This document shows, in pieces, positions 22,598 to 43,865 of a stretch of DNA of 64,000 nt. Every line of letters starts with the position of its first letter. Within the stretch, counting starts at the first letter, position 1. Source of the stretch: a virus. The stretch lies in IMG/VR virus record IMGVR_UViG_3300005663_000029, positions 62,001-126,000 of that record; one strand, given 5' to 3'. A program made the translations under genes and the position numbers. The notes beneath the pieces are model-generated. The model was not told the DNA's origin, made no database searches, and worked only from the letters and a program-made list of their open reading frames with translations.

Positions 22598-22819
22598 TTA
22601 TTTTATTTTGGGGGCCATCAACTTCTGCATCTTGTTGTCTTTGGCTAAGGTAGTATATGAGGATGCAGCATTTTGAATCCTCTTACTGTTAGGCTTCATC
22701 TTAGGGCCTTCATGGACTGCAGATAACGGAGGAAGCTTAATCACCTTCGGAGCTGTAGCCATAAGTGTAGATCCCAGCTTCCTGAGTTCATCTATACAAG
22801 GTGTGAGTACATATAACAT
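22598..22819 (-). CDS. Hypothetical small virion-arm protein (73 aa)
   Basis: A basic protein beginning MLYVLTPCIDELRKLGS. The ELRKLG is a loose form of the E-L-x-K-L-A signature of the neighbouring genes. Its start overlaps the upstream stop by one base. No domain is recognised. Confidence 0.55.
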   Translation of the reverse strand: MLYVLTPCIDELRKLGSTLMATAPKVIKLPPLSAVHEGPKMKPNSKRIQNAASSYTTLAKDNKMQKLMAPKIK

Positions 22820-23406
22820 CAGCCTCTAGGGACACCTATTACAGGGATCATAAGTTTACCAGACAAGATCTCTCTTTGTATCTGCGGGTTGTTGATAAAT
22901 TTCTGGTACCCACCTAATAACTCTTGTGTGCGTTTAATCTTCTCGCCAGCTCTTTTCCTACCTTTAGCTTTACCAATTTGGCTGCCTATAATGCCACCCG
23001 GTAACATACCTAAAACACCTCCAGCTAATCCTCCTAAGAGTGCAGCCTTTGGATTCTTCTTTAGTAAGGCAGCTGCTCCAGCTCCAAGTCCCGCACCTAA
23101 GCCACCGCCTGCTAAAATACCCTTACCAGCACCCCTACTTGTATATCGGCTAATAGTCGGGTCAGAAATAGTCGCTAGCTCTGACTTGTTAAGTGTTGAG
23201 CCCTGCCTTACTGCAGAACGTAGCCATTTATTTCTGGCTATAATCTCTTGACCTGACAGATTCTTTTTATAACCAGCACGTCTAAGCATAGCTCTCTGAT
23301 CCATCAGAGATCGATGCAACTGCTCTCCGGTCGTAGGACCACCATGAGCGGCCAGTTTGATGATTTCATCACCACAACCTGAAGTTATGTGTACGTGGTT
23401 ACCCAT
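22819..23406 (-). CDS. Tagged virion protein with glycine-rich membrane segment (195 aa)
   Basis: A short form of the head-protein signature is at residues 13-20 (DEIIKLAA). The middle has two long glycine/alanine-rich hydrophobic helices with GxxxG spacing (GLGAGLGAGAAALL and LLGGLAGGVLGMLPGG), flanked by strongly basic stretches. This is the layout of a pore-forming or injected virion protein, but that is inference. It belongs to a run of similar genes. Confidence 0.6.
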   Translation of the reverse strand: MGNHVHITSGCGDEIIKLAAHGGPTTGEQLHRSLMDQRAMLRRAGYKKNLSGQEIIARNKWLRSAVRQGSTLNKSELATISDPTISRYTSRGAGKGILAGGGLGAGLGAGAAALLKKNPKAALLGGLAGGVLGMLPGGIIGSQIGKAKGRKRAGEKIKRTQELLGGYQKFINNPQIQREILSGKLMIPVIGVPRG

Positions 23407-23407
23407 C

Positions 23408-23668
23408 TTACCGTCTGCCCTTCATACTGAATGCTTGAAATTTCTTCTTACCGTACTTTTTACGGCCGATAGCTGCAGCTACTGCACCGGCAGCTTGTTG
23501 CTTAGTCTGTCCTGCTCTTGGTTTAATGCTTTTAGCAATATTCTTCTGCAAGGACTTGAATCTGACACCAGAACCTAATCTGGCTTTCCTAGCAGCCAGT
23601 TTGTTGAGTTCAGAATGGAATGCTGACTCAACAACCTGACTAACAACTAATGCTTCTACTTGGTCCAT
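23408..23668 (-). CDS. Tagged basic virion protein (86 aa)
   Basis: The class-1 signature is complete near the N-terminus: SAFHSELNKLAARKA at about residues 15-29. The rest is extremely basic (RKARL, GRKKYGKKK), consistent with DNA binding inside the head. Spaced 1 base from the next gene. The function is inferred from composition and context only. Confidence 0.6.
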   Translation of the reverse strand: MDQVEALVVSQVVESAFHSELNKLAARKARLGSGVRFKSLQKNIAKSIKPRAGQTKQQAAGAVAAAIGRKKYGKKKFQAFSMKGRR

Positions 23669-23680
23669 GAGATTAACACC

Positions 23681-24460
23681 TTATTTAAGAGCTGCAGCGC
23701 TCAAGCCACCAACACCTAATGCAGGTACGCCGATAGCAACCGCTCTCTCTAATTGAGCATTAGAGACTCTGCTCTTCGCCTTATGAAAAGCCTTCTGTTC
23801 GGGACGTAATCCAGATTTTTTAGGATTAGCTATATTCCATTTTGCACGCCTAGATTGTGCTCCAGACCACATCTTCTTTGTCCGCTTAGCTGATGCTACG
23901 TTCTTGCCTTTAACAATATCTTTGTAAGCAGTAATCATTTTTTTGATCTGCTCTTTTTTAGGTAGGCGCTGTCCGATAGGTAAAGCTTCTTTAATGAGAG
24001 AGGCACTTTTCTTGATACCAGTAAGCTTACGCTCTCTGGCAGTCATGCCTTTGCCTCCACGAGCTTTTCTACCAGCTAAACCTCTCATCTGCTGACGCCG
24101 ACTTAGTGATGTCACTCCAGCTGCGCCAAGACCAGCAAGACCAGAAGCAACTGCTCCACCTATTAAAAGCTTCTTAGGTAATTTAGACGCTCCACGAACA
24201 GCAGCTTTACGGCTACCAGCAAGACCGAGTTCTTGGCCCAATCGTGCCATAGCTTGCAATCCTTTTCTAGTCTTGACTATCTTCTTAGCACCATGTGCTA
24301 CTGCTCCTGTAATTCCTAAACCTAAACCGGTTACACCAGCACCCTGAAATGCTGGATCAGTGGCTGCCCTTGAAAAAGGGTATGTCTTCTTGTCCTTAGC
24401 TTCCTTTAAAAGGAAATCGGCCATTCCAAGCAATTCTTCTCTATCGATATTTGCATTCAT
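23681..24460 (-). CDS. Tagged virion protein with membrane helices and basic C-terminus (259 aa)
   Basis: The class-2 signature EELLGMADFLLKEA occupies residues 8-21, almost the same as in the genes at 25080 and 25486. Two glycine-zipper helices follow (GVTGLGLGITGAV and LLIGGAVASGLAGLGAAG). The second half is very basic, and the end is another hydrophobic helix. An internal SLIKEAL could be a second protease site. Likely a minor virion protein. Confidence 0.6.
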   Translation of the reverse strand: MNANIDREELLGMADFLLKEAKDKKTYPFSRAATDPAFQGAGVTGLGLGITGAVAHGAKKIVKTRKGLQAMARLGQELGLAGSRKAAVRGASKLPKKLLIGGAVASGLAGLGAAGVTSLSRRQQMRGLAGRKARGGKGMTARERKLTGIKKSASLIKEALPIGQRLPKKEQIKKMITAYKDIVKGKNVASAKRTKKMWSGAQSRRAKWNIANPKKSGLRPEQKAFHKAKSRVSNAQLERAVAIGVPALGVGGLSAAALK

Positions 24461-24472
24461 TGTTTAATCTCC

Positions 24473-25045
24473 TTATTTTCCACGAACGCTTACTAAGACT
24501 CCAGTACCAGCTCCTGCAACTGCTCCACCTAAAACAGTAGAGGCCATAGGGATAGCTGGTCTAGAAGCTAACATAGCTGTTTTGTTTTTGGTTAATTTAC
24601 TTAATATTTTTTGTAATTGAGGTCTGTACTTCAGTCCGAGAATCATACCACCAATACCACCAAGCAGCCCAGTCGTTCCGCCTAGAAGTTTAGCTAACTC
24701 CTCATTTTTAATCTTGTGTCCTTTTTTGCTGGCAGCATGAGCCGCTAGTCCTGAAGCTTTCTTTCCAACATTAGCGGCTCCCGATAAAGCTATGGCCGCA
24801 TGAGGTATATTAAAATCAAAAGGACTTAAACTTATGATGGCTATCTTTTCAAGTTCTTCCCTAAAAGCAGCTGCTTTGATCATACCTATAGTAATCTCTG
24901 CTTGAGCCTGCTTCTTAAACTCAGAAGGTTTTACACTCTTATCGGTATGTAATTTATCAGGCATGGTTTTGAAGCTTTTTCTACCTTTACTCTTCTTCTG
25001 CTCGTCTGCCCATCGTCTAGCTATCTTAGGGTGTTGTGCAAACAT
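24473..25045 (-). CDS. Tagged virion membrane-type protein (190 aa)
   Basis: The class-1 signature (AAFREELEKIA) is internal here, at about residues 59-69, after a basic N-terminal extension. An ATG at about residue 55 would place it at the N-terminus, so the annotated start may be too long. Two or three glycine-rich hydrophobic helices follow (GGTTGLLGGIGGMILGL). The family is not recognised. Confidence 0.55.
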   Translation of the reverse strand: MFAQHPKIARRWADEQKKSKGRKSFKTMPDKLHTDKSVKPSEFKKQAQAEITIGMIKAAAFREELEKIAIISLSPFDFNIPHAAIALSGAANVGKKASGLAAHAASKKGHKIKNEELAKLLGGTTGLLGGIGGMILGLKYRPQLQKILSKLTKNKTAMLASRPAIPMASTVLGGAVAGAGTGVLVSVRGK

Positions 25046-25079
25046 GTACCTCTGCGCTGAGCTTTAGACTTGAAGGGCA

Positions 25080-25484
25080 TTACTTACTTTTCTTCGCAGC
25101 GTTCTTCTTCATAGATTTACGCAGTTTATGTCTGGTTAAACCACCGCCTGCACCAAGTAAAGCTCCTGCTCCACCGATAGCTCCAGTAGCTAATAAAGCT
25201 TTAGGTCCAAGCTTCTTGATAACCTGTTTAACAGTTCGGGCTTTAGTAGATAACCTACGACTTGGTACACCAGAAACTTTTGCTTGTAGACGAACTCTTA
25301 GTGCTTCTCGAGATGCGCCGTACATCCCATAACCTTTAGCAGCAGCTGCACCACCACCTACAGCTACACCACCAGCAAGAGCGCCTATACCAGCTTCAGA
25401 ACCATAAGAGCGTTTACTCTTCCTGGCCTCTTTCAGTAAGTAGTCAGCTATTTCATGTAACTCTAAAGTAGTTGGTGTACTCAT
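25080..25484 (-). CDS. Tagged virion membrane-type protein (134 aa)
   Basis: The start is the ATG at 25484, just after AAGGA. The frame runs further upstream but only into the previous gene. The class-2 signature LELHEIADYLLKEA is at residues 7-20. Two glycine/alanine-rich hydrophobic helices (GIGALAGGVAVGGGAAAA and LLATGAIGGAGALLGAGG) and a basic tail ending KKSK follow. Confidence 0.6.
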   Translation of the reverse strand: MSTPTTLELHEIADYLLKEARKSKRSYGSEAGIGALAGGVAVGGGAAAAKGYGMYGASREALRVRLQAKVSGVPSRRLSTKARTVKQVIKKLGPKALLATGAIGGAGALLGAGGGLTRHKLRKSMKKNAAKKSK

Positions 25485-25485
25485 T

Positions 25486-25953
25486 TTAACGATTCCTTTT
25501 CGGCTTAGATTTTCTAGTGAGGACGTATGTTGCACCAGCAGTACCTACACCGCCTGCAGCTGTCGCACCCCTAGCAAGGTTTACAGCATCTATTTCTTTC
25601 TTAAGTTTACCTACAGGTTTAACACCTCCCAGTAACCTGCCTAATATACCTCTAGGTGCCCTGCCAAAATTCTGCTGCTTTCGCAACTTACTAAGAGCTG
25701 ACGTAGCTCGAAGGTTTTTCACACTAGCGGATCTGAAGCGTGTCTTACCTGTCTGACCAGTCACAGAGCCTGTAAACTTCTTACCACCAGCCATCAACGT
25801 ACCATAACGTTTCACCTTATCTACGACCTTTTTCAAGATAGATGGGGGAATGGTTTTAGTACCGGCTGTAAGCAACTTAGGGGCCGCTGATGCCTCCTTT
25901 AAGAGGTAGTCAGCAAGCCCATGTAGTTCTTCTGTTGTCAGGCCGTCGTACAT
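25486..25953 (-). CDS. Tagged virion protein (155 aa)
   Basis: The class-2 signature EELHGLADYLLKEA is at residues 8-21, sharing ADYLLKEA exactly with the gene downstream. The protein is strongly basic throughout, with a short glycine-rich hydrophobic segment (AAGGVGTAGATYVL) near the C-terminus. It is the first of the distal run of tagged genes after the tail tube gene. Confidence 0.6.
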   Translation of the reverse strand: MYDGLTTEELHGLADYLLKEASAAPKLLTAGTKTIPPSILKKVVDKVKRYGTLMAGGKKFTGSVTGQTGKTRFRSASVKNLRATSALSKLRKQQNFGRAPRGILGRLLGGVKPVGKLKKEIDAVNLARGATAAGGVGTAGATYVLTRKSKPKRNR

Positions 25954-25970
25954 ATGTCATCCATTAAGAA

Positions 25971-26003
25971 AGGGGATACAATAAACATATTACCGCATCC
26001 CCT
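25971..26003 (-). terminator. Stem-loop after the probable tail tube gene
   Basis: AGGGGAT and ATCCCCT form a 7-bp stem with a 19-base loop in the gap downstream of the tail tube gene and before the run of small tagged genes. It may separate expression of abundant tail proteins from the minor ones. There is only a short T-rich run. Confidence 0.45.
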
Positions 26004-26027
26004 CTATTCTCGAAAGGCTTTATCTGA

Positions 26028-26726
26028 CTACAGTAGGCCAGATATCAGAGCTACTTCGCTGGTGGCTACAGGTATTGCTCTTTCGAACTGTATAGCACAA
26101 CTTTCCTGAATCAGAACACCTTGCGCGTCAGTAGCGAAGGTATGATTCGGGACGTAGCACTGTTCGAAGTAGACTGCACCTACTGTACGTTCATCAGAGT
26201 CCTTAACATAAACTAGCAGACCCATAGGTTGCGAGAACATATCGGAAGCTAAATTTATGAAGAGGTTCTCATACCCTGGAGGTATCTTCACATCATGGTG
26301 TACGAAGGCTGAACCTACGTTTTGCCACAAGGAAGGTACAATTCCTGGGGGTAGGAGGTCTTGGTAGTATGCATAGAGAGCGCGTAGCAGTGAAGGTCCG
26401 TGGTATAAAACCCTACCTAACGAAATCTGACCGATGGTTCGACCAGAAATAAAGTAGGAGCGTTCTGAACCTATCTCGAATAAACGAGTGAACTGCCTGT
26501 TATGGCTGATGTTCAGGTTCTGAACCACACCAATCGGGTACGCTACTGTATCAACTGCTGCGCCGCCAGCCTGGATCAAAGTACCTACTACTAATTCACC
26601 GGCTAAGTTAGATAGACGAGGGGGTCCAGCAGCGATAAGCGTAAACGCGCCCGACATAAAGAGGCCGTCTTGCAAGCCTCCCTGCACATACTTATCGTAT
26701 TGATCCCATTGGCTAATTGTGCCCAT
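26028..26726 (-). CDS. Probable tail tube protein (232 aa)
   Basis: It lies 11 bases downstream of the sheath gene, the usual sheath-then-tube order of contractile tails. The length and beta-rich composition with the segments VVQNLNISHNRQFTRLFEIG and SERSYFISGRT fit tube proteins of large phages. No K-L-A or K-E-A tag is present. The assignment rests mainly on position. Confidence 0.55.
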   Translation of the reverse strand: MGTISQWDQYDKYVQGGLQDGLFMSGAFTLIAAGPPRLSNLAGELVVGTLIQAGGAAVDTVAYPIGVVQNLNISHNRQFTRLFEIGSERSYFISGRTIGQISLGRVLYHGPSLLRALYAYYQDLLPPGIVPSLWQNVGSAFVHHDVKIPPGYENLFINLASDMFSQPMGLLVYVKDSDERTVGAVYFEQCYVPNHTFATDAQGVLIQESCAIQFERAIPVATSEVALISGLL

Positions 26727-26737
26727 TTATCTACTCC

Positions 26738-29263: not shown

Positions 29264-29274
29264 AGTCTCCTTAA

Positions 29275-30048: not shown

Positions 30049-30409
30049 TTACTTTACCCTTCTTAGGTTCCATAGATTGTTTATGGGCTGCCCACTGTAA
30101 TCCGTGATAAAGAGTACCTAAACCTGCTGCTCCACCGGCTGCGGCCGGTAATCCATAGGCAAGAGCTTTAGATGTTTTAGGATGTGAACGTATAAACTTG
30201 CGACCTGTTTTAGATACCAAGGCACGAGTTACAGGGTACATTGCGTACCTACCTAAACCAAACCCTATAGCTGGAGCAGCAGCTATAATAGCAATGTTCT
30301 TTAACCATCTTTTGGTTTTAGAATCATCACCAGTAGCTAACTTAGTCAGTTCGTCTTTAAAGGACTCTGACGTAATTAATGTATTTGCTGCTGTATCTAA
30401 GTTGCTCAT
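30029..30409 (-). CDS. Tagged small virion membrane-type protein (126 aa)
   Basis: The class-1 signature ESFKDELTKLATG is at about residues 15-27. It is followed by a basic patch, hydrophobic helices (NIAIIAAAPAIGFGLG and LPAAAGGAAGLGTL) and a basic tail. The architecture is tag, basic linker, glycine-rich helices, basic end, as in neighbouring genes. Confidence 0.6.
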   Translation of the reverse strand: MSNLDTAANTLITSESFKDELTKLATGDDSKTKRWLKNIAIIAAAPAIGFGLGRYAMYPVTRALVSKTGRKFIRSHPKTSKALAYGLPAAAGGAAGLGTLYHGLQWAAHKQSMEPKKGKVNANPAR

Positions 30410-31233: not shown

Positions 31234-31841
31234 TAGCCTACTCCTGGTAGGACTGCCCCACTTCTAACATCTATAATCATCTCGGCAGCACGGCCAGCCA
31301 TAGAGCGTATCTTGTGCTTTTTAACTATCTTACGTCCTATAACCGCCTCTACCTCTTCAGCAGATTTGTGTCGAGGAACATTTTGTCCTTCTTCTAAACC
31401 TCTGGTAGCTATAAAAGCTCCAACTGCGGCGGCTGCTGGTATAATTCCAAATTGAAATACTCTGGATCCAATTGTTTTCTTAAGCAGGTTAGGCATTTTA
31501 TCCCAGAGACCCATCTTCTCTGCAGAATGTCTAAATAGAAAACCAGCTCCACCGGCTGCTGCTCCGATACCTGCACCTACGCCTAATCCACGTGTTAATT
31601 GATATCGTGGATACTCACCAGGTCTTTCGGCTAAATAAGAAGAGCCTTCACCAATGAGTTGTTCTCTCATACCCGTAGGTAGATTGCGCTCCCTCTGAGA
31701 CGCACGAAGGGATGCCATAGCATCCGAAGTGCTACGTACAAACTGTCGAGGAGGAGCAGCTGCCAACTTCTTTAATTCGTTACCAAATGCTGAAGCGACT
31801 ACTGCTCCTCCCACATACTCATATACTAGAGAGGAAGACAT
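31233..31841 (-). CDS. Tagged virion membrane-type protein (202 aa)
   Basis: The class-1 signature SAFGNELKKLAAA is at about residues 17-29. A basic region and two glycine/alanine-rich hydrophobic helices follow (GVGAGIGAAAGGAGFLF and IIPAAAAVGAFIA). Its start overlaps the stop of the neighbouring gene. The function is inferred only from shared architecture. Confidence 0.6.
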   Translation of the reverse strand: MSSSLVYEYVGGAVVASAFGNELKKLAAAPPRQFVRSTSDAMASLRASQRERNLPTGMREQLIGEGSSYLAERPGEYPRYQLTRGLGVGAGIGAAAGGAGFLFRHSAEKMGLWDKMPNLLKKTIGSRVFQFGIIPAAAAVGAFIATRGLEEGQNVPRHKSAEEVEAVIGRKIVKKHKIRSMAGRAAEMIIDVRSGAVLPGVG

Positions 31842-31852
31842 AAGTTTCTTAC

Positions 31853-32236
31853 TTACAGAGCTTTTCCGATACCTACACCAGTGGCTAAACCAGTACCGCC
31901 AGTCAAAGCAGCTCTAGCAATAGCTTGTCGTTTCTTGGCACCACCAAGAGCTTTGGTGTAACCCACAACTCCGCCGATATCTTTAGCTCCTGCTAAACCA
32001 GCTTGTGCTTTGGATACATTACGGCCTCCGATATCTTTACCAACCATTCGAGCTTTCTCTCCTGCTTTGGTAGCATATCTACCAAGCTTACCGCTTTTCT
32101 TTCCGCCCCATTCAACAAGCTTCTTACCGGCAACGGCTATCCCTTTACCAATCTGTCCGTAAACAGCTAATTTCTCAAGCTCGTTTCTAAAAGAGGCTGC
32201 CATAACTTTATCGTTTACTGTTTGATCTAAATCCAT
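31853..32236 (-). CDS. Tagged basic virion protein (127 aa)
   Basis: The class-1 signature ASFRNELEKLAVYG is at about residues 14-27. The rest is lysine- and glycine-rich with repeated short helices and a glycine-rich hydrophobic C-terminus (GGTGLATGVGIGKAL). A probable minor head protein. Confidence 0.6.
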   Translation of the reverse strand: MDLDQTVNDKVMAASFRNELEKLAVYGQIGKGIAVAGKKLVEWGGKKSGKLGRYATKAGEKARMVGKDIGGRNVSKAQAGLAGAKDIGGVVGYTKALGGAKKRQAIARAALTGGTGLATGVGIGKAL

Positions 32237-32259: not shown

Positions 32260-32601
32260 TTATTCCGCACCTTGTTCGGCAAGAGCTGTTTGGACTTCGA
32301 GATTGAGTCTCTCGATAGGGGAAAGATTTTCTAAATCTACTCCCTCTTCGTCAGCCGATGCTGTTTTGTTTAAACGATCCATAACCATTTCTCTAGCAAG
32401 CGCACGGCCTGTTGAATCTAAAGAAATAATCGCATCGTGGTCTAATACTGCCGACGCTTCTTTATAGAAATCATTATCGATAGCGACTTCTTCGCCTTCG
32501 TCGAGTTGGATTAAACCGGCTTCTGCCATCTTGATTAGTTCTTCTTCAGCTACCGGTGCAGTACCGTACATAGCGGATAGAAGTGCATTTGGTTGACTCA
32601 T
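32260..32601 (-). CDS. Tagged acidic virion protein (113 aa)
   Basis: An early EEELIKMAEAG segment (about residues 19-29) and an internal FYKEASAV both fit the tag consensus. Unlike its neighbours it is acidic and soluble, so it may be a scaffold- or assembly-type component. The ribosome binding site is weak. Confidence 0.55.
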   Translation of the reverse strand: MSQPNALLSAMYGTAPVAEEELIKMAEAGLIQLDEGEEVAIDNDFYKEASAVLDHDAIISLDSTGRALAREMVMDRLNKTASADEEGVDLENLSPIERLNLEVQTALAEQGAE

Positions 32602-32620: not shown

Positions 32621-33001
32621 TTATTTGGTTTTTTTGACTAATGCTTTTTTCTTAGCTACTTGTACTTTCTTCATAGGACCTCTAATTGTCATAGCGGCTC
32701 TACGTCCAGTAGCTTTATCATATTTAGAAATATGTTTTACAAAGGTAGGTCTAGAAGCTTGGTCAGCTCTTTGCTTGGCCGCACTTCCTGATCTTAGAAC
32801 ACCTAATCCTGCCATACTAGCACCGCCCCCGATGCCTAGAGCTTTAATACCTTGCAAAATTTCTTGCCTAGTAGCTTTACTCTTAACTGCCTTCTCGGTT
32901 GCTTTTTTAGCAGCACTACCAAAGAGAGCTAATTTTTCAAGTTCACTCTTGAAGGAAGCTGCTGCTACCTTGCCCATCGTTATATCTTGTGTATCTGACA
33001 T
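32621..33001 (-). CDS. Tagged basic virion protein (126 aa)
   Basis: The class-1 signature ASFKSELEKLALFG is at about residues 15-28, differing from the gene at 31853 at only a few positions. The remainder is basic with a short glycine-rich helix (LGIGGGASMAGLGVL) and a lysine-rich end. Likely a paralogue or convergent tag bearer. Confidence 0.6.
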   Translation of the reverse strand: MSDTQDITMGKVAAASFKSELEKLALFGSAAKKATEKAVKSKATRQEILQGIKALGIGGGASMAGLGVLRSGSAAKQRADQASRPTFVKHISKYDKATGRRAAMTIRGPMKKVQVAKKKALVKKTK

Positions 33002-33011: not shown

Positions 33012-33386
33012 TTAAGAAAATGCTACTAAAGCTGTTAAAGTTCTTTTAGAGCCTAGTGTTACGATTGCTTTCAAATCTCCAGAGTATGTTACCTGACCTC
33101 TTTGTAATAAGTCAGCAAGACCTACACCTTTCTTTGCTGCCGTTTCACCGGCAGGAGAGAACTTTAGTACACCAGTTGCCTCTTTATGACTTGCTGAGAC
33201 CTTCTCTCCGGTCTTCGCATCATAATACCTAAACCTTCCTTGGCCGTCTACAACCTTTATAATGGTACGCTTAAAAATAAACGTAGGTGCCATTGATTCT
33301 CGCTGCTCTTGCATACGCACTTTTTGTACAGTGCTTTGCAGACTCGGTTTCTTTTTCTTCTTCGATTTAGGTTGGAATAGACTCAT
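33012..33386 (-). CDS. Basic virion-arm protein (124 aa)
   Basis: An N-terminal run of lysines (PKSKKKKKP), then a beta-rich domain with FRYYDAKTGEKV. It has no recognisable tag. It is spaced a few bases from tagged neighbours and overlaps the metallopeptidase-like gene by 4 bases. The function is unknown. Confidence 0.55.
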   Translation of the reverse strand: MSLFQPKSKKKKKPSLQSTVQKVRMQEQRESMAPTFIFKRTIIKVVDGQGRFRYYDAKTGEKVSASHKEATGVLKFSPAGETAAKKGVGLADLLQRGQVTYSGDLKAIVTLGSKRTLTALVAFS

Positions 33387-34255
33387 TTTTTATCACCCTT
33401 TTTAACTGGTGGTTTATGTTTAATCTTTTTCTTTAACTTCCCTGCTGCTAAAAAAGCTATAGCTAAAGACAAAGGCATAGCAGCATAAGTAGAGATTGCT
33501 GTAGTAGCTGGCACTAATCCTTTTAACATAGACTTTAAACCATGCTTTTTCTTGAGATAGTTTAACCCATAAGCACTGGCTCTTGCTTCATTATATAATT
33601 GAGGTAAAAATGGGGCTGCAACTAAGGCAGGAGCCGCGTACTCGTTGTCTGTTGACATTGCTATAAGACCACCACCTATACCAGCTAAATAGGCAGCTCT
33701 ATTTGCACGAGATAATGCTTGAGTCAGATTTCTACTCTGACCCCTAGTTAATTTACCACGCCATTTATGAAGTAAGGAACGTTGTTCACCAACCACGTGC
33801 CCAACCTCATGTGCAGGAGCAAACTTGCCTGTATCAGTAATTGCGAATTTAGCTACAGACCTTTGTGGTTTTCGGGGATCTAAATCAAGATAAATAGAGG
33901 TCTGTCCTGATCCTGCAGATCTACCTACTTCGATAGATGATTCAGGATTTTTAAGGATATCAGACAATCCATATTGATTTAACATCTCTGCAATAACTGA
34001 GGAAGCTTTAGCTGCTTCGTCCTTAACCAACTCTTTGGTGACTTTAGAAACTAGTAGTTCGTCTGCTTTACGGGAAAGGAGACTAGTTCCTACTCCTGCA
34101 ACACCTCCTATAGCCATAGCACTGGCACCTAACTGCCTGCCAAGCATAATATTTCTAGTATCCCGGAAACTGTTGTCTGTCTGAGCTTTGATCGTATGAT
34201 TATCAGCCAACTTAGTGATCTCATAACCAACATTTGAGAAACTGCATTCCATCAC
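33383..34255 (-). CDS. Tagged HExxH metallopeptidase-like membrane protein (290 aa)
   Basis: It carries a short tag, YEITKLAD at residues 11-18. The core has a zinc-peptidase motif HEVGH at H149-H153 preceded by FAPA, and a later E223 in EARASAYGL that could be the third zinc ligand. Hydrophobic helices lie at about residues 40-60 and 190-215, and again near the basic C-terminus. This architecture fits a membrane-inserted metallopeptidase. A role in cell-wall or envelope processing during entry, or in head maturation, is possible. The motif is seen; activity and role are inferred. Confidence 0.6.
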   Translation of the reverse strand: MMECSFSNVGYEITKLADNHTIKAQTDNSFRDTRNIMLGRQLGASAMAIGGVAGVGTSLLSRKADELLVSKVTKELVKDEAAKASSVIAEMLNQYGLSDILKNPESSIEVGRSAGSGQTSIYLDLDPRKPQRSVAKFAITDTGKFAPAHEVGHVVGEQRSLLHKWRGKLTRGQSRNLTQALSRANRAAYLAGIGGGLIAMSTDNEYAAPALVAAPFLPQLYNEARASAYGLNYLKKKHGLKSMLKGLVPATTAISTYAAMPLSLAIAFLAAGKLKKKIKHKPPVKKGDKK

Positions 34256-34779: not shown

Positions 34780-34787
34780 TTTCTACA

Positions 34788-35830: not shown

Positions 35831-35844
35831 TCTAAAGTCCTTCG

Positions 35845-35875
35845 AGTAGGGAGGCCCGGTTAGGACCTCCCTACT
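35845..35875 (-). terminator. Stem-loop after the major capsid gene
   Basis: AGTAGGGAGG and CCTCCCTACT form a perfect 10-bp stem with an 11-base loop directly downstream of the probable capsid gene. It may limit read-through or stabilise the abundant capsid mRNA. Confidence 0.65.
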
Positions 35876-35892
35876 TAGGTTGCTAAGTCAGA

Positions 35893-36939
35893 TTAAAAGG
35901 TGACCAGCGGCTGAACCTGATCAGGCTCAACGTAAGTACCACCCAGTTCATCTTCAAGAGCAAGACCGACTGCAGGACGGTTACCAGCAAGAGTCGGATC
36001 GCCTTTGTAAAGCTCCATCTTAGAGATCGAAGCTACATTAACGATGATCATGCCAATATCTTCCCATGCCCACCAAGTAATAAGATTACCGACTTTGTCG
36101 ATATAGAACTTGGTGTTGTTCAGGACGTAACTCTTACCGAGAAACTCTTCCTGGGTGAAGAAGTAGATATTACCCTGTTTCAAGATGTCAGTCTTGATTG
36201 TACGGATAAGCTCCATGCCCAGGAATAGGTTGTACTTGTAGCCATCTACGATGACTTCCGACGCGATCTTGTCACCGAAATCCGTAATGGTATAACCGGT
36301 GATATCATCGAAATCAGGCTCTGTCATCAGGATGCGTTGCGCACGGCGACGACTACCTGACAAAAGTTTCTTACATTCGATGAAGTCAGCCTTCACGTTA
36401 GGTGTCAACTCAGTTGTACCTAGCGATGATGTACGGGCTGGCTTAAAGATGTTGTTGGCAGCTGTTAAAGGATTGGTGTAGTTTCGGACTGCTGCCTCAA
36501 TATAATTGAGGAAGTAGAAGTCTTCAATTTCTTCAATGTCTTTAACAGTGTTTTCTTCGATTACCTTTGTAAGAGGCATCTGGTACGCCAGAAGCTCTTG
36601 CTCAGTTTTCTCGAATTTCTCCGAGGAGATGGAGAAAAACGGGCATTCAACACGCGGGGCGCTGATGAAGCGCGAATCGGCTTCACCTCGGAAGGTGATG
36701 GCCATCGCTTTACTGTTCGGCTCGATCTCAACGATTTTAACCAGTGTGTCGTGATTAACAGACACTTGGCAATCGTCTTTAGTAACCGTTTGGGGGTTAA
36801 TAACCTTTCGGTTAAATGCTGACTCGCGTAGTTTGTCGCGCACATACGATGTCGTAGCAGCGGCAAGCTTTTCACGAGAATCCTCACTGTCCAGCTTTTG
36901 CATGAACAGATCATTTAACTGGGAAGCATTTAGTTCCAT
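35893..36939 (-). CDS. Probable major capsid protein (348 aa)
   Basis: Position and context point to the major capsid protein. It follows scaffold-like and protease genes, has a decoration-like gene immediately upstream, is bracketed by its own spacer and a strong stem-loop, and is GC-richer than its neighbours, as for a highly expressed gene. The mixed alpha/beta sequence of 348 residues fits the HK97-like fold size. An N-terminal REKLAAATTSY (about residues 22-32) carries the K-L-A element and could be a prohead-protease site. No sequence family is recognised directly. Confidence 0.6.
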   Translation of the reverse strand: MELNASQLNDLFMQKLDSEDSREKLAAATTSYVRDKLRESAFNRKVINPQTVTKDDCQVSVNHDTLVKIVEIEPNSKAMAITFRGEADSRFISAPRVECPFFSISSEKFEKTEQELLAYQMPLTKVIEENTVKDIEEIEDFYFLNYIEAAVRNYTNPLTAANNIFKPARTSSLGTTELTPNVKADFIECKKLLSGSRRRAQRILMTEPDFDDITGYTITDFGDKIASEVIVDGYKYNLFLGMELIRTIKTDILKQGNIYFFTQEEFLGKSYVLNNTKFYIDKVGNLITWWAWEDIGMIIVNVASISKMELYKGDPTLAGNRPAVGLALEDELGGTYVEPDQVQPLVTF

Positions 36940-36963
36940 TATAATTGGCTCCTTTCTTTCCAG

Positions 36964-37473: not shown

Positions 37474-37522
37474 TGTCTGTACTCCTAAAAAAGGGTTAGT
37501 GGTTTAGAACCTGATTTATCTC

Positions 37523-37894
37523 TTACGAGACTAAAAACGCCGTTAGAGCATCAGGCTCTTCGGCACCAGCAGAACTAGCCTCTTTGGAGAACGAAGAAAT
37601 TTGTCCTAGAGGTGTGAACTCCGGACGCAGTTCGACTGACTGCTCTAGAACATCTATTGAGGAACCCTTATCGAGCGACTCTTTTAATGCATCTACAGCA
37701 TCTTCGTGTGTTCCAGCCAAACCTCTAGATACCATGCTTGATGCCAGCTTAGACAAACGGTCCACACTTTCGTGGTCCGTCAGCTTGGCACGTAACTCTA
37801 CGTTCTCTGCTGACAGAGTACGCATAGTTGAAGCGGCTTCTTTCAGTAGGGCTGAAGCTTTCTGCGAACTGATCTTTTTCATCGTTTTCTCCAA
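37523..37894 (-). CDS. Tagged helical virion-arm protein (123 aa)
   Basis: The tag ASALLKEAAST is at about residues 13-23. The rest is a helix-rich, acidic sequence with a second FSKEASS near the C-terminus. It lies between scaffold-like genes and the capsid gene and may be an assembly factor. A small inverted repeat (TTCCTA with TAGGAA, 37921-37938) follows the upstream gene. Confidence 0.55.
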   Translation of the reverse strand: MEKTMKKISSQKASALLKEAASTMRTLSAENVELRAKLTDHESVDRLSKLASSMVSRGLAGTHEDAVDALKESLDKGSSIDVLEQSVELRPEFTPLGQISSFSKEASSAGAEEPDALTAFLVS

Positions 37895-37945
37895 ATCCTT
37901 TGTGGACTAAAACCTGTGGGTTCCTAATGGTGTAGGAAGCTTATA

Positions 37946-38752
37946 TTATAGTTGTCCTCCAGCACGCATTGTGTCGATTTTTTCGACTACGCGCTGGGCT
38001 GCTGTTTTCATAGTACCAAGATTGGCTTTTACAACCGGATCCCCGTGTACTCCAACTGCCGGTTCTTTTAAAATTCCGGCCATCTGAGACTTAACTTGGG
38101 CATCGTTGACTTTTTTGCCAGTGCTGGCTACTGCTGCACTACTGGCTAAGCTCTTAGTAGCTTTATCTTTTGGCTTTGTTTTATCTGCTACAGGCTCTTC
38201 TTCACTTAAAAAGGCCGGTGGACCGTCAGTAATTGACGGCTCGGGAGCTACAGCACTTACTTGTTCGCTAGACTTCTGAGTAGGTGAACCAGCTACGCCT
38301 GATGATACAGGAGCTGTTTGATCGTGAGTTGTAGAGTTGCCTGAGTAGGCTGAAGCCTGCTTGACAGTAACCGTAGCACTATCGGCTTTCTTTTTCTCGT
38401 TATCTTCTACAACACCTGTGTCATCGACAGCTGTAGTAGCTTGCGGTTTAGGTTTGTTACCAGGTTGCTCACCTTGGGTACCTGCTTTATTGGTATCCAA
38501 TTGGCTAACAGCCTCACCTTTATTAGTAGGTGGGACAGGAGCATCCATAGCTACCTTAGAAAGAGCAGCTCCAACTTCGTCAGCTCTCTCAACCATATTA
38601 AGGTTATCAGCCAGAAAATCTAAAGCAGACGCAACCTTCTCTATAGTAGAGACTCCAGGAGTTGTAGATTGTGTTTTTATTGTAGTAGCTATCTTTTCGA
38701 AGCTGTCTGGCTCCAAAGTAGCTTTCACAATTTCTAATAAAGATGAGCCCAT
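37946..38752 (-). CDS. Scaffold-like or internal head protein (268 aa)
   Basis: The start chosen is the ATG at 38752, preceded by a GA-rich ribosome binding site. An upstream in-frame start at 38797 overlaps the neighbouring gene. The sequence is low-complexity, rich in Ala, Thr, Lys, Glu and Pro, with two K-x-A elements near the start (SFEKIATT and IEKVASAL) and further ones later. Long disordered regions suit a scaffold or internal protein. Confidence 0.55.
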   Translation of the reverse strand: MGSSLLEIVKATLEPDSFEKIATTIKTQSTTPGVSTIEKVASALDFLADNLNMVERADEVGAALSKVAMDAPVPPTNKGEAVSQLDTNKAGTQGEQPGNKPKPQATTAVDDTGVVEDNEKKKADSATVTVKQASAYSGNSTTHDQTAPVSSGVAGSPTQKSSEQVSAVAPEPSITDGPPAFLSEEEPVADKTKPKDKATKSLASSAAVASTGKKVNDAQVKSQMAGILKEPAVGVHGDPVVKANLGTMKTAAQRVVEKIDTMRAGGQL

Positions 38753-38768
38753 TGTTCGAATTCCTCTC

Positions 38769-39359
38769 TTAATAGTAGGTAGGTGCTCTACCACCACCGT
38801 AGTTAGGTTGCTTGGAACTGCCTAGTAACTTCTTACCTCCGTAATAAGCTCCTAAACCTAGACCTCCAGCGATCAATCCTTTGACCCCTAGAGACTTTAA
38901 TTTTTGCTTAACACGACCAGCACCACCAGCTGCTGCCGATCCCGGTTTCACTCTATGTTCAGGTGTTACATCGAGAATTTTAGTTCTTCCTGTAAAAGTA
39001 CCTTTAGTTGTATGAAACTGCTTACTTACATCAGACAGGTTTTTTTGGTGCTGTACAGATCTTTCTCTAATTTGTTTCCCTAAATTAGCTACCTGTACAA
39101 GATTTTTAGAGGCTCTTTGTTGAGCCTTTAATTTTCTTATATCGGATCTATACGTAGACGCTACTGACTTCTGAGTAGCTCCGATATCTTTTTCGATGCC
39201 CTTAGTAAGCTTTCTAGTAGCTCTTCTACCTCTCCAGTTACTGGGACCACCTGATCTAGCTTCTCCTAACTGAAACGCACGCTCACGCATACCAGGAGTA
39301 TCTAGCACCCGGCCGCGTACTGCTTCTTTAGTGAAGCCTATTAATTCATGCTCAGTCAT
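38769..39359 (-). CDS. Tagged basic virion protein (196 aa)
   Basis: The N-terminal tag ELIGFTKEAVRG is at about residues 4-15. It is followed by a strongly basic helical region with coiled-coil character and a C-terminal glycine-rich hydrophobic helix (GLIAGGLGLGAYYGG). Its layout matches the tagged family. Confidence 0.6.
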   Translation of the reverse strand: MTEHELIGFTKEAVRGRVLDTPGMRERAFQLGEARSGGPSNWRGRRATRKLTKGIEKDIGATQKSVASTYRSDIRKLKAQQRASKNLVQVANLGKQIRERSVQHQKNLSDVSKQFHTTKGTFTGRTKILDVTPEHRVKPGSAAAGGAGRVKQKLKSLGVKGLIAGGLGLGAYYGGKKLLGSSKQPNYGGGRAPTYY

Positions 39360-39372
39360 AATTAGTTCTTTT

Positions 39373-39409
39373 AGTGTGCCGGAGGAGTGTTATCTCCCCC
39401 GACGACACT
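39373..39409 (-). terminator. Imperfect stem-loop after the acidic scaffold-like gene
   Basis: AGTGT and ACACT flank an imperfect GGAGGAG/CTCCCCC pairing, giving a hairpin of about 14 bp with a few mismatches in the 58-base gap. A T tract is lacking, so its role is uncertain. Confidence 0.4.
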
Positions 39410-39417
39410 TATTTATC

Positions 39418-40170
39418 TTAAGCTAAGGAAGCTTCTTTTCTGAGCACTTCGAGGTCGCCACCCGCTTCGATAAAAGCGTTAACAACACCGATAGCCTCGG
39501 AGTCGGTTAGATTATAAGCCGAAGCTTTCTTCTCTTGACCTTCTTTTTTACCGGCTTTCTTTTTCTTCATCTCCGCCATGTACGCTTTGTACTCTTCGGG
39601 AGACATTTTTTTCTCGTCTTTTTCTTCGGCAGCTTCTTTATGAAGAAGGTCTTCCGGGTCTACACCAAGAAGTTCTGCTTTAGCGTTTAACACTTCTAGT
39701 GCTTCACCTTCTAAAGCCTCTGCGATTTTTACATAATCTTCTTCAGTGATACCACCGGTCGCAAAGTTAATCTCAGCAACTGAAGCTGCTTTAACTAACT
39801 CACCTTCGGCTTCGACGACATCTTCCAAAGTAATACCTTCACTGTAGTCAGCGATCTCGGCATCTTCCGGGATAAATCCTGCCATTTTTGCTAGGCTGGG
39901 ATCCAACTTAGTCATTTCTTGCACGAATGAATGTGCCATTACACGACCAGCCATATCGGCTTCCGCATATTTGGCAAAGTCTTCTGGATTTTCTGATGAA
40001 GCAACTTTATCTAAAACAGCGTCAGCTAGTTCTAGAGGGTTGTCAGTATCAACATCTGTCGATTCACTATCATCAAAAGCTAAAATTGATTGAGCTAGCT
40101 TGGTCATATCATTATCTTCTTGATCTTGACCTTCACCGTCTGGGTAGAGTGAGTCTAGAAAAGTACTCAT
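39418..40170 (-). CDS. Probable scaffolding protein (250 aa)
   Basis: A highly acidic, helical protein with many tag-like elements: DMTKLAQS near residue 22, LDKVASS, SFVQEMTKLDPSLAKMAG at about residues 80-97, GELVKAAS and EVLRKEASLA at the extreme C-terminus. The acidic nature, position next to the protease gene and several potential cleavage sites fit a scaffold degraded during maturation. Inference from composition and location. Confidence 0.6.
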   Translation of the reverse strand: MSTFLDSLYPDGEGQDQEDNDMTKLAQSILAFDDSESTDVDTDNPLELADAVLDKVASSENPEDFAKYAEADMAGRVMAHSFVQEMTKLDPSLAKMAGFIPEDAEIADYSEGITLEDVVEAEGELVKAASVAEINFATGGITEEDYVKIAEALEGEALEVLNAKAELLGVDPEDLLHKEAAEEKDEKKMSPEEYKAYMAEMKKKKAGKKEGQEKKASAYNLTDSEAIGVVNAFIEAGGDLEVLRKEASLA

Positions 40171-40263
40171 TGTTTTATTCTCCTACAAAACTTGTGTTTG
40201 GTTTTTTAAGGCCAGGGGTGTAGGCCAAATCTTTACAACTATCCACATGATACACACTCATTA

Positions 40264-41970
40264 CTAAATCCTCAATGCCGCCTTGCTCACATTAAATAAT
40301 GTAGCTGACGTAAAACTTGGATTGTTAGTAATAAACTTCTGTATCACGTTTAATTCCTCGTTATTCTTAATACCTGCTCTCTTTAAATGAGCAGCATATA
40401 AATATGTTAAAGGAACAATAGCAAGTAAAGCCTGCCACGGAACCTTTTTTGCGTCAACTCCTACTGCAGCTAACTTCCAAAGTTCGTCTGAAGTCTCTAC
40501 ACCCAATGCACCCAACAAGTAAGGGTTGCGTCTAGATATACTCTCTAGATGCGCCACCTTTATAAGGTCCGACCTGTATTGGGCGTACATCTTAGAGAAT
40601 CCGTCCAGTATATGTTTATACTGGTCCGGAACATCTGATGATGCGGTTTTAGTTAAAGGAGGAGCTACCTTCTTTATATTTAAAACAACCACACGCTTAT
40701 TTAAAGCTGGACCAAAAAATGATCTTTGAGGTAATAATTGTTTAATGGATTCTAAAATAGAGGAATCAAAAGAAGGTATTAAAGAACTGTTTGTAGGTGC
40801 GGGTAACTCATCTCTAGCTGGAGGATCAAAGCAAACGTTATTACTATCCATAACATCTGCAACGTCCTTATATCCTTTAGAAACAAGCACCATTCTTTGA
40901 AACTCTCTAGGTTTAACTAGAACACCACCGTACCCAAGAGAATCTAAAATAGTCTTTAAAGGAAATTGTGAACTTAAATTGTCAAGAGTGTTCTTATTTA
41001 TGTCAGGCTCACAACAAGTTAGTGAGTCCATTTTTGACAAAGTACCCCTAATTACTTGTACATCTTTAGCTGGAATATCTTTAATAAGTTCAGCAACTTT
41101 ACCGATGTTTGCTCTCTTTTCTTGACCTTTATACACACCAAACTGCTCAGCTAACATAGCAGATGGCATAAAGAAAGGTTGACCTGCAGTAGCTACTTTT
41201 CGTAACACTTTTGCAGTAGAGTCTGCACCAATAAAGACGAAACTTATATCAAAAAACTTCGGGTACATATTGACAGCAGTAACAATTCTACCGTCGTGCC
41301 ATATCTTACCTATACACCCTTTTAAGTGTTCGCAGTAATCTGAGAATCGCTTGGCGATACCGTTGAACTTTTGTGGGTTATTGTTTGGTAAGTAAGCTCT
41401 TCTGAGGATTTCTTGTACTGGTAATTCCCATAAAGTCTCAATTGGGGGGCCGCAAATGGAGCAGACATCAAACGGTACTCTAGCGCCCATTGAGACATCT
41501 GGTAGTTCTCCTTTAAGTATCCTATTGATGACATAACCAGCACCGACAATCCTAGCCCTTTTAACATCAAGTTGCAGCAATAGTTCGACCCTATGCATAC
41601 GAGTATTGTACACAGAAGCCATAACTTTTCCGAAAGCGAACTCATCAGATTTGTTACGGTGATGAGGGAATGGACGAGCGTATAACTCGAATGTTTTATA
41701 TCCATAACCATTACCTTCGTGACCCAGTCCTCTCTCAGGAAATGAATCCCCGTTTACATTCGAACCCCAAAACTCACTAGCGCCTAAAGCATTTACTAAA
41801 ACATAGGTGTAGCTTGGAGATGGTACAATACCTTTAATTAAAGCAGCTATCTTAGGATCGTATTCAGTAGCAACTTTAGAAAAATCTCCAGGGTTCACTA
41901 CCTCAGTAACAAATAACTGATACATTCCCTCCTCATCTATCCGAGAAGGGAAGAAGAGGCGTTTATCCAT
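40264..41970 (-). CDS. Probable prohead maturation protease with cysteine insertion (568 aa)
   Basis: The N-terminal 170 residues resemble prohead proteases: a hydrophobic strand, NVNGDSFPE (about 71-79), GYKTFELYARP with HH at 103-104, and MHRVELLLQLD, then DVSMGARVPFD with S160 as the possible nucleophile. A CSIC pair (C170, C173) and later YCEHLKGC suggest a zinc-binding insertion. The C-terminal 300 residues are helical and contain several K-x-A elements (SKVATEY, RKVATAG, LTKTASS, WKLAAVG), so it may cleave itself. Position between scaffold-like and portal-side genes fits. The call is by motif resemblance, not a firm match. Confidence 0.55.
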   Translation of the reverse strand: MDKRLFFPSRIDEEGMYQLFVTEVVNPGDFSKVATEYDPKIAALIKGIVPSPSYTYVLVNALGASEFWGSNVNGDSFPERGLGHEGNGYGYKTFELYARPFPHHRNKSDEFAFGKVMASVYNTRMHRVELLLQLDVKRARIVGAGYVINRILKGELPDVSMGARVPFDVCSICGPPIETLWELPVQEILRRAYLPNNNPQKFNGIAKRFSDYCEHLKGCIGKIWHDGRIVTAVNMYPKFFDISFVFIGADSTAKVLRKVATAGQPFFMPSAMLAEQFGVYKGQEKRANIGKVAELIKDIPAKDVQVIRGTLSKMDSLTCCEPDINKNTLDNLSSQFPLKTILDSLGYGGVLVKPREFQRMVLVSKGYKDVADVMDSNNVCFDPPARDELPAPTNSSLIPSFDSSILESIKQLLPQRSFFGPALNKRVVVLNIKKVAPPLTKTASSDVPDQYKHILDGFSKMYAQYRSDLIKVAHLESISRRNPYLLGALGVETSDELWKLAAVGVDAKKVPWQALLAIVPLTYLYAAHLKRAGIKNNEELNVIQKFITNNPSFTSATLFNVSKAALRI

Positions 41971-42619
41971 TAAAAGCTTTACCTACGTTGCACAGGAAGC
42001 TAGTTCGTGCCGAAGCTGATTTAGTCATACCTCCAGGACGAGTCTGATTTACCTGAGTAGCATCTTCTGGAAAATTTTCTGGTCTCCTCACACCTGTTGG
42101 TGCTGGATGAAGGTCTTTATATTTAGGTACAAAAGCTCCGAGTCCCGCACTTAAAGTACCGGACATTATAGCCTGTGTCCCAGGATGCATAAATGGTTTA
42201 GGCTCTTGATACATCTTACCCATACCGGTAAGTAATTCTAGATGCTCTTCGTCATGGACACCTAACATCCTTTTTACTGCAGCTGAAGATGCAATAGGGT
42301 CTCTAGCTACTTGAGGATTAAAATTCCAAATAGAATTAAAATACTTCTCGACTTTATCACGATTCACCTTTTTAGCTAACTCCGGTGAATGATTGAGCAT
42401 AGCTTTATAGGATCTAGATTTTTGGATTGCTCCTCCAATACTTTCGGCAGCAACTTGGCCACTAACAACAACTCCACCACCGAGAATGCTACCAATAATA
42501 GCTGCTGGCATAGTCGCCATCGTTTGTGCTGCGGCGGTTCCAACCACTTCAGCTTTCGGGCCTGATTTAAATCCTTGCCAGAACCTAGAAAATGCTCCAC
42601 CTGTTGGTATCTTTGGCAT
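41963..42619 (-). CDS. Virion membrane-type protein (218 aa)
   Basis: A hydrophobic glycine/valine-rich helix lies near the N-terminus (IIGSILGGGVVVSG), followed by a soluble region and a second hydrophobic stretch. Near the C-terminus, MTKSASARTS matches a K-x-A element. It overlaps the protease gene by 8 bases. The function is unknown. Confidence 0.55.
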   Translation of the reverse strand: MPKIPTGGAFSRFWQGFKSGPKAEVVGTAAAQTMATMPAAIIGSILGGGVVVSGQVAAESIGGAIQKSRSYKAMLNHSPELAKKVNRDKVEKYFNSIWNFNPQVARDPIASSAAVKRMLGVHDEEHLELLTGMGKMYQEPKPFMHPGTQAIMSGTLSAGLGAFVPKYKDLHPAPTGVRRPENFPEDATQVNQTRPGGMTKSASARTSFLCNVGKAFNG

Positions 42620-42972
42620 TATCGATATCTCCTGATCGTAGTCGGTTGAGGGGCACTATACCTGGCCCCTGATTTAATAGTTCTTCCAGCCTTTTGAGCT
42701 GCCGATATTCCTTCCATCCCTATCAACCCTCCCATGCCTACACCCATAGTACGTTTACCCATACGTTTAAGAACTCGGGCAGGATCTTTAAGCATTTCTT
42801 TACCTATATTTTTAGGAGCGCCAGTAACTGCCCTAGTAGTTCCACCAGTAACTTTACCAACACCCTTAAGAAGTTTAGATCCTATCCCTATAGCTTTCTT
42901 GGCACCCCAAACAGCTAAGCCAGACTCTTTAATAAGTTCATCACAGAACCCTTCTAACATCGCTTGATTCAT
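42619..42972 (-). CDS. Tagged basic virion protein (117 aa)
   Basis: The N-terminal MLEGFCDELIKESGL (residues 5-19) is a class-1-like tag with S in place of the final A. The rest is basic and glycine-rich with a hydrophobic segment (GVGMGGLIGMEG). Its start overlaps the next gene by 4 bases. Confidence 0.6.
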   Translation of the reverse strand: MNQAMLEGFCDELIKESGLAVWGAKKAIGIGSKLLKGVGKVTGGTTRAVTGAPKNIGKEMLKDPARVLKRMGKRTMGVGMGGLIGMEGISAAQKAGRTIKSGARYSAPQPTTIRRYR

Positions 42973-43865
42973 AACCCACGTATTCTATCTAACACATAAG
43001 TTTTAGCGTCCTTAATTTGACGCTTAGAGTTCATAAAAAATAATTTTGAGTATGCCAGTTTAACTAAAGAGTTAAACTTCATAACCAGAGGGTGTTCTGG
43101 ATTAACTTCCTGTAAGATGAAATCATCTTCTACAGACCCAGCTTCTTTAATAAGCTTATCTTTCCTGATGACTTTGTTTGAAGCAAGCTTAGATAAAACT
43201 ATAGGAAAGTATTCTTTAGCTACAGAAGGGTCCACTGAGTTCATTGCTGCGGCTACGTCAAACACTGAGCCATTATGGTCCAGGATATGAGATTTAGCTT
43301 CTTTATAGAAATCCTCTACAGCATCATAGTAGTAATTATCTACTTCACGAACTTTGTTGTCGAGTAGATTCTCTGCTCTATTTAAATCACTCAATGTAAC
43401 AGAGGCTGTTCTTGCTGAAGCTGTCTTCTCATATTCTACCGTCTTATTACCGTCATCTTTACCTACACCAGAAAATAACATCTCCATATCTTTATCATCC
43501 TTTTCAGCTGATGGAGTCCAGGGACGGTCTTTAGAAGGAGAGGCCTCTAAAGGCTTAACCCCTGGTGCTTTTAAATTTTTCTCTAATGCACCGTTCACAC
43601 CATCGAATGAAGCTAGAGGGAACTCAAACGTTTTATCCGCCTCTGCACTAAACATATGAGAGAAAGTAGATTTATTTGCGCTCTCAATTACCCTACGCAG
43701 CTCTTGTGGATTCAGTTTTGTGTCACCCACAGCTTGGATGATTGAATCATTCAAAGCAGCGCCAGTAGCTATAGCAATATCCTTGGCTTTCTCGCCAATA
43801 GACTTGAGGTTGTCACTATCGTTGTGTAACGAAGAAGTAGTAGAAGTAGATACTAGACTCACCAT
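42969..43865 (-). CDS. Head-associated protein with repeated K-x-A elements (298 aa)
   Basis: A polar, acidic first half with possible disorder (about residues 95-145) is followed by a helical second half. YEKTASAR, DFYKEAKS, LSKLASNK, LIKEAGS and VKLAYSK are scattered through residues 145-280. It is the last gene of this transcription unit before the divergent gene at 43969. A scaffold or internal head protein is plausible. Confidence 0.55.
   Translation of the reverse strand: MVSLVSTSTTSSLHNDSDNLKSIGEKAKDIAIATGAALNDSIIQAVGDTKLNPQELRRVIESANKSTFSHMFSAEADKTFEFPLASFDGVNGALEKNLKAPGVKPLEASPSKDRPWTPSAEKDDKDMEMLFSGVGKDDGNKTVEYEKTASARTASVTLSDLNRAENLLDNKVREVDNYYYDAVEDFYKEAKSHILDHNGSVFDVAAAMNSVDPSVAKEYFPIVLSKLASNKVIRKDKLIKEAGSVEDDFILQEVNPEHPLVMKFNSLVKLAYSKLFFMNSKRQIKDAKTYVLDRIRGL

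Follow-up and report, generated by a model that had tools for sequence, protein, structure and literature searches.

The head genes of a large uncultured phage appear to encode a two-part head-maturation system, in which a prohead protease acting at a Lys-x-Ala motif (K-x-A) is combined with a scaffold-like N-terminal tag carried by unrelated cargo proteins. They lie mainly in the window, that is, the whole 64,000-nucleotide stretch considered here, which corresponds to positions 62,001 to 126,000 of the 174,885-bp phage record IMGVR_UViG_3300005663_000029. We put the probability of this reading at roughly 0.7. According to it, the protease encoded at 40264 would cut after the Ala of [LMFI]-x-K-x-A|S/A, its substrates being the capsid protein (after A26), a scaffold-like protein, several K-x-A-rich head proteins and the protease itself. 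Unrelated cargo would bear an N-terminal amphipathic helix like the scaffold helix that is best conserved, GRVMAH[SA][FY]-x-Q-E-L-x-x-I, and through this tag the basic cargo would assemble together with the acidic core of scaffold. Because of the L-x-K-[IL]-A at the end of the tag, release of the cargo by the protease is probable; the cargo would then remain in the head with the DNA and enter the host with it. Scaffold binding, packaging, tag removal and delivery are the steps that we infer.

The entire record was analysed, with 247 genes predicted by a simple codon-based caller. Ten relatives were taken in at full length (complete records or long contigs), giving 11 genomes together with this phage. 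The named relatives are Salmonella phage Arash and Vibrio phages D69, D148 and D181, with a capsid identity of 27-30%; a relative of the capsid protein is encoded in at least 124 viral-contig stretches and one of the protease in at least 477. Motif statistics, conservation, scaffold resemblance, distribution and cargo character were all computed. Cleavage of the phage G capsid protein and the virion proteomics of Arash were taken from published experiments on relatives.

The original prediction had described two N-terminal signatures in this region, and both were recovered: F-x-x-E-L-x-K-[LI]-A in six proteins (23408, 24473, 30029, 31233, 31853 and 32621) and A-D-[YF]-L-L-K-E-A, the KEA type, in three (23681, 25080 and 25486). 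Their positions, with that of one looser form, are as follows.

23594..23620, minus strand: tag FHSELNKLA of 23408 (strict motif)
24839..24865, minus strand: tag FREELEKIA of 24473, residues 61-69 of the annotated frame (strict motif)
30335..30361, minus strand: tag FKDELTKLA of 30029 (strict motif; the same place holds tagged genes in most relatives)
31761..31787, minus strand: tag FGNELKKLA of 31233 (strict motif)
32165..32191, minus strand: tag FRNELEKLA of 31853 (strict motif)
32927..32953, minus strand: tag FKSELEKLA of 32621 (strict motif)
34205..34231, minus strand: looser tag VGYEITKLA of 33383, a protein that also has an HEVGH motif
24398..24436, minus strand: KEA-type tag ELLGMADFLLKEA of 23681
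25425..25463, minus strand: KEA-type tag ELHEIADYLLKEA of 25080
25891..25929, minus strand: KEA-type tag ELHGLADYLLKEA of 25486

In 24473 the motif is present but N-terminal only if an alternative start codon six residues before it is used. Looser forms were indeed found, at 33383 (above), 22819 (CGDEIIKLA), 42619 (FCDELIKES) and 32260 (EELIKMA) and in the capsid protein 35893 (SREKLA, with KLA at residues 24-26); the earlier figure of fifteen proteins is about right when they are counted, and not otherwise.

Within-protein shuffles of the 247 predicted proteins gave a mean of 0.025 strict tags against 7 observed, and no KEA-type tag against 3 observed. The broader pattern [LIMFVY]-x-K-x-A occurs in the first 45 residues of 17/31 proteins of the minus-strand cluster at 22.5-44 kb, where shuffles expect 3.5/31, and in 17/216 elsewhere (p = 3e-9). 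With gene location standing for virion membership, the signature is not equally common in nonvirion proteins. The cluster proposed at 22819-43865 is therefore real, but the pattern also occurs outside it, in an SNF2 helicase and in the genes at record positions 163221 and 164265. Tag codons differ between copies at many synonymous positions, so that conservation acts at the protein level and reflects selection on the protein, not recent DNA duplication.

Over the 11 genomes, the tag consensus [ASG]-F-x-D-E-L-x-K-[IL]-A was found on dozens of non-homologous proteins, with 42 occurrences in the first 30 residues against 1.6 expected; the same first-30-residue search found none in Arash or D69. 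As had been proposed, unrelated sequence follows the tag: the remainders of the tagged proteins form 57 clusters (one earlier set). We also scanned 2.9 million viral contigs with one coding pattern of F-x-D-E-L-x-K-I-A, a lower bound given that Leu was restricted to CTN codons, and one in which D, K, I and A are fixed by construction. Among the matches listed, there are 133 protein matches, 105 lying at most 15 residues from a plausible start and 22 at 16-35; the residue preceding F is Ala, Ser or Gly in 110/127, and 23/27 large tag-bearing contigs also encode this protease.

Some tags are unusually placed. The tag was also seen behind another small N-terminal module (MPxWIHDRA... or MPYKSERQRR...), with KTA or KSA between, and in one case at the extreme C-terminal end of a protein of 64 aa (L105:5805-6281, plus strand; L162:4654-5874, plus strand; G007:C1:75000-75194, minus strand). 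In the window, upstream of 24473, a short frame that starts MPFKSKAQRR (25045-25083, minus strand) ends early and the following frame continues MFAQHPKIARRWADE; the two resemble one small module split by a frameshift, real or assembly-born.

The second line of evidence is the likeness of the tag to the phage's own scaffold. Candidate scaffold and protease genes do lie in the head cluster, as had been predicted: 40264 is matched to PHROG_18299, and 39418 encodes an acidic protein between the protease and the capsid gene.

39418..40170, minus strand: scaffold-like protein of 250 aa, net charge -37, 10 K-x-A motifs (gene order, acidity, conserved family downstream of the protease)
39907..39966, minus strand: conserved scaffold helix AEADMAGRVMAHSFVQEMTK, residues 69-88, on which the tag is probably modelled (a matrix built from it retrieves tags)

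This helix is the most conserved window of 39 scaffold homologues (0.91 versus a median of 0.38), in which a near-invariant AEADFLGRVMAH is followed by [SA][FY]-x-Q-E-L-x-x-I. A matrix built from scaffolds only, on the right half of the helix, placed 13 tagged proteins in the top 20 of 2,543 non-scaffold proteins (0.35 expected), versus 0-1 tagged proteins retrieved with column-permuted matrices. The left half retrieved no tags in the same kind of search; the shared element is thus the F-x-x-E-L-x-x-I half, except in a few longer tags of this phage where the match extends upstream (NDKVMAASFRNELEKLA vs AGRVMAHSFVQEMTKLD). The tag therefore looks like a scaffold mimic, and the simplest mechanism, as judged from sequence, would be that it joins cargo to the scaffold core as if the cargo were scaffold. 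The Arash protein considered for the scaffolding role, Gp223, was detected in purified virions (PMC10585845). In the window, an acidic 113-aa protein (32260-32601, minus strand; net charge -18) recalls the scaffold family by its AMYGT start and TGRALAREMVMDRLNKTAS segment and is possibly a second scaffold paralogue.

The third line concerns K-x-A. In each orthologue family, the counts of all residue pairs at spacings 1-5 were set against those expected from composition; the z-scores overstate significance, orthologous sequences not being independent, but the order of the pairs and the difference between families stay clear. K-x-A is the top enriched pair in six families across the 11 genomes: 39418, 40264 and the four listed here.

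37523..37894, minus strand: K-x-A-rich head-module protein (23 observed vs 6.9 expected)
42969..43865, minus strand: K-x-A-rich head-module protein (93 vs 32; Arash orthologue Gp220 in virions)
49470..51515, minus strand: K-x-A-rich protein of 681 aa (111 vs 38)
63353..64000, minus strand: K-x-A-rich protein of 364 aa (103 vs 31), its N-terminal part outside the window (full frame at record 125353-126447)

When these six families were pooled with the capsid protein, 36964, 41963 and 62463 as a head set, K-x-A was observed 548 times against 233 expected. No enrichment was found in the sheath, tube, terminase, portal-like and RNA polymerase families (253 vs 266 expected), which agrees with the earlier statement that sheath, tube and terminase lack the signature, nor in 2,348 other proteins (2,556 vs 2,505). 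The enrichment recurs in the head modules of Arash and D69. The flanks of the motif give a cut-site consensus [LMFI]-x-K-[TVLE]-A|S: P5 is hydrophobic, P2 is T, V, L or E, and P1' is Ser or Ala, with Pro, Leu and Ile avoided and Ser found 122 times after K-x-A against 34 expected. Head-only enrichment, the P1' Ser bias, a near-invariant capsid site and its alignment with the phage G cut lead us to read K-x-A as very probably the site of the prohead protease. This is a predicted specificity, drawn from a statistical motif and one aligned capsid cut.

The capsid site is located in the following gene.

35893..36939, minus strand: major capsid protein, HK97 fold (PHROG_2522, E 2e-14; Foldseek HK97 heads)
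36862..36870, minus strand: capsid KLA, residues 24-26, predicted cut after A26 (conservation and phage G alignment)

The capsid model (pLDDT 62) matches HK97 heads in Foldseek with E about 1e-7 and probability 1.00. K24 is invariant and A26 at least 90% conserved in 41 sequences. In Bacillus phage G, 282 capsid residues are encoded and 255 are present in the virion protein according to N-terminal sequencing (PMC5646251). If the 27 missing residues are lost from the N-terminus, the cut falls after A27, EEGRVALA|QAMANP, which aligns ungapped with SREKLA|AATTS of the present capsid protein. The phage G protease is homologous to 40264 (E 1.6e-24).

40264..41970, minus strand: prohead (head maturation) protease, 568 aa, 12 K-x-A motifs (PHROG_18299, E 5.6e-5)

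PHROG_18299 is matched by 13/22 protease homologues, and H103, H104 and S160-M-G are invariant in 22 sequences; we take the invariant His and Ser to be the putative catalytic residues. K-x-A ranks first in this family too (131 observed vs 57 expected, 11 orthologues), and in the protease model most K-x-A motifs beyond the catalytic domain sit in regions predicted with low confidence. The protease has no sequence match in the PDB. A Pfam S77 search of the record gave no match and is uninformative, as the controls had none either.

In at least 12 relatives an InPase domain lies behind the catalytic domain in the protease frame, some such frames adding a weak glycine-zipper match and a domain of the RRM or DUF5661 type. 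Polyvalent proteins, which are believed to be injected, are known to contain InPase domains (PMC5512222). The insert domains are bracketed by K-x-A sites, and the motif is 2.5-fold rarer inside them (12/1,297 positions) than in the remaining post-catalytic part (140/5,923). Intein or homing-endonuclease domains were seen inside the protease frames of L036, L084, L148, L109, L089, L054 and L022, and some of these frames reach 1,300-2,000 aa. Gp97 of Mycobacterium phage Myrna (L390:11701-15336) is annotated 'tape measure' yet matches the protease family with E 2e-4 and is encoded two genes ahead of the major head protein; the annotation is possibly wrong.

As to the cargo, tagged proteins are strongly basic (p 4e-17) and rich in glycine zippers (p 4e-11), and their Gly+Ala content also differs. 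An enrichment of membrane-type segments was considered and rejected (4/41 vs 135/1,468). Pfam gave almost no functional names for ten head-cluster and ten tagged proteins; a protein-kinase match in L129 (E 0.008) fell under the curated cut-off and was not used. The tagged cargo candidates identified include the SNF2 helicase (record 45466-46929) and proteins with HExxH motifs. A helicase search in viral contigs returned two relatives only. In G003 and G004 the helicase orthologues keep an N-terminal L-x-K-x-A and have lost the rest of the tag. Zinc-peptidase-like motifs are present in two tagged proteins of different phages, HEVGH in the window (33383-34255, minus strand; no Pfam match) and HELGH in L349:7155-7919 (plus strand); this is the commonest domain type of polyvalent proteins (PMC5512222). 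Also in the window, one 2,101-aa frame (53887-60192, minus strand) matches both large RNA polymerase subunit families, a region split into separate genes in Arash and D69, and seems likely to encode a fused RNA polymerase carried in the virion; in Arash, the subunits rank with the most abundant proteins of the particle (PMC10585845).

The earlier suggestion of a targeting or cleavage signal for the prohead is thus supported by the tests that could be run, with two distinct signals involved. That the tagged proteins lie inside the head is a prediction, as is cutting of the tag, and several observations weigh against the combined scheme. Foldseek found no significant match of the protease model to a solved protease. 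The neighbours of the Myrna protease homologue show no K-x-A enrichment, so that the motif is not extendable to all homologues. P3 in the phage G capsid is Ala, not Lys; what it shares with this phage is the cut position and P1 Ala, not the entire motif. In our capsid model, of modest confidence, KLA falls in a predicted helix. The Arash orthologue of the helicase, Gp217, was found in purified particles with 1,148 spectra (PMC10585845), which in itself counts in favour of the scheme; it is untagged, however, and the tag is therefore not the sole way in; the authors of that study considered that abundant enzymes might be carried over into particles (PMC10585845). Coverage values of the Arash mass spectrometry were not used for cleavage, 100% coverage from two unique peptides being unreliable. 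Finally, Ser follows the tag in 7% of cases, against 25% for internal sites (p 7e-6), and a hydrophobic residue or Pro follows it in 28% against 11%. As the residue after the tag ignores the P1' preference, cleavage of the tag is doubtful, and targeting may be its main job. The tag end coincides with the cut-site core, and the tag is possibly cleaved; this is the weak point of the whole scheme. In the T4 targeting sequence, import depends mainly on residues 4 and 7, processing on residues 8 and 10 (PMC9026906), an earlier example of one signal whose functions can be separated.

The rival that survives best starts from this same point: the tag would be a docking helix that is never cut, binds the scaffold, the portal or some other protein of the head, and remains part of the mature product. 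Besides the missing P1' preference, it would suit the frequent position of tagged genes beside neck, tail and portal-like genes and the helix of the window scaffold itself, which reads SFVQEMTKLD, with Asp where the tag has Ala. We consider it unlikely, since the tag retains its K and A (in part because the search pattern demands them) and the helicase orthologues keep K-x-A though the rest of their tag is lost. Just behind it, and unlikely as well, comes a tag that is only a propeptide with a protease site, its upstream conservation reflecting extended substrate recognition and packaging being specified elsewhere or passive. A tag ending in the cut-motif core, and helicase orthologues in G003 and G004 that retain just L-x-K-x-A, are what it has in its favour; yet conservation of F, E and the preceding Ala, Ser or Gly goes well past what the logo of internal cut sites shows, the residue that follows the tag is off the cut-site preference, and tag and scaffold helix match. 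An origin by chance, composition or shared descent (any amphipathic helix, or paralogues diverged past recognition) is very improbable in view of the shuffles (0.025 vs 7), the 11-genome expectation (1.6 vs 42), the 57 remainder clusters and the failure of column-permuted matrices, even if E-L-x-K-type helices are common and two among the contig-scan matches listed are coincidences resembling ordinary transketolase-type enzymes. A post-infection signal for membrane insertion or tail passage, suggested by the glycine-zipper segments common in tagged proteins, is scarcely credible for a tag that matches the phage scaffold and accompanies the protease, on proteins where transmembrane-like segments are not enriched.

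The combined scheme, a K-x-A protease with a scaffold-like tag, has known counterparts. The tag sequence presumably differs from the capsid targeting sequence (CTS) of T4. The CTS of T4 (IPI-III, Alt; protease gp21) is likewise a short N-terminal sequence on basic internal proteins with differing mature parts; it is thought to work via the scaffold core and is cut by the prohead protease, with cargo that varies among relatives (PMC9026906). Here too a short N-terminal sequence is found on unrelated proteins (42 vs 1.6; 57 clusters), but the T4 cut motif is L/I-x-E and not K-x-A, there are many more cargo types here, the tag visibly resembles its own scaffold helix, and its cleavage is putative. 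In phage P1, the N-terminal 30 residues of DarB suffice to load a reporter into the head (PMC9024508); cargo there, as here, includes a helicase-type protein, and the P1 capsid protein differs in being cut between Glu and Ser. Polyvalent proteins (DarB/DdrB-like, InPase, metallopeptidase), whose cargo is predicted to be injected, share InPase with the relatives' protease frames and HExxH with a tagged protein (PMC5512222). They differ in that the protease domain is N-terminal here and inserts are bracketed by K-x-A; the window protease has no Pfam domain and no insert, and so does not show the several effector domains of a polyvalent protein.

Like phiKZ and SPN3US (proteases gp175 and gp245), this is a large myovirus in which many head proteins would be trimmed at a three-residue motif, with several sites per propeptide and a self-cutting protease; the motif there is S/A-x-E instead of K-x-A, and a short shared cargo tag is not described. 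Herpesvirus assemblin, which cleaves Ala-Ser bonds, frees its own scaffold; its structural similarity to the window protease model is non-significant (E about 1). In a search of the open-access literature, subscription papers lying outside it, no paper was found on a Lys-x-Ala head protease or on this tag. The system would work as those of T4, P1, phiKZ and SPN3US do, and what sets it apart is the K-x-A motif, the tag sequence with its scaffold likeness and the number of cargo types.

The sequence phenomenon is strongly supported; packaging by this mechanism is a prediction. We think it somewhat better than an even bet that a scaffold-mimicking head-import address and a Lys-x-Ala protease are the general code by which cargo is loaded in a large and mainly uncultured group of ~170-210 kb phages, with dozens of unrelated users, and that in some relatives the protease frame is itself a cargo polyprotein from which inserts (InPase and others) are cut out at the bracketing K-x-A sites. 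Proteins packed in the head are then probably recognisable from sequence alone. If this is true, candidate head cargo of the whole group (at least 477 contigs with a protease relative) would be listable by the tag, and anonymous small genes would become a catalogue of candidate injected proteins, the helicase among them. Swapping of cargo would be explained by the attachment of one short helix. A further proposal is the specificity of the protease, and the compact tag might serve to bring foreign proteins into the heads of large phages.

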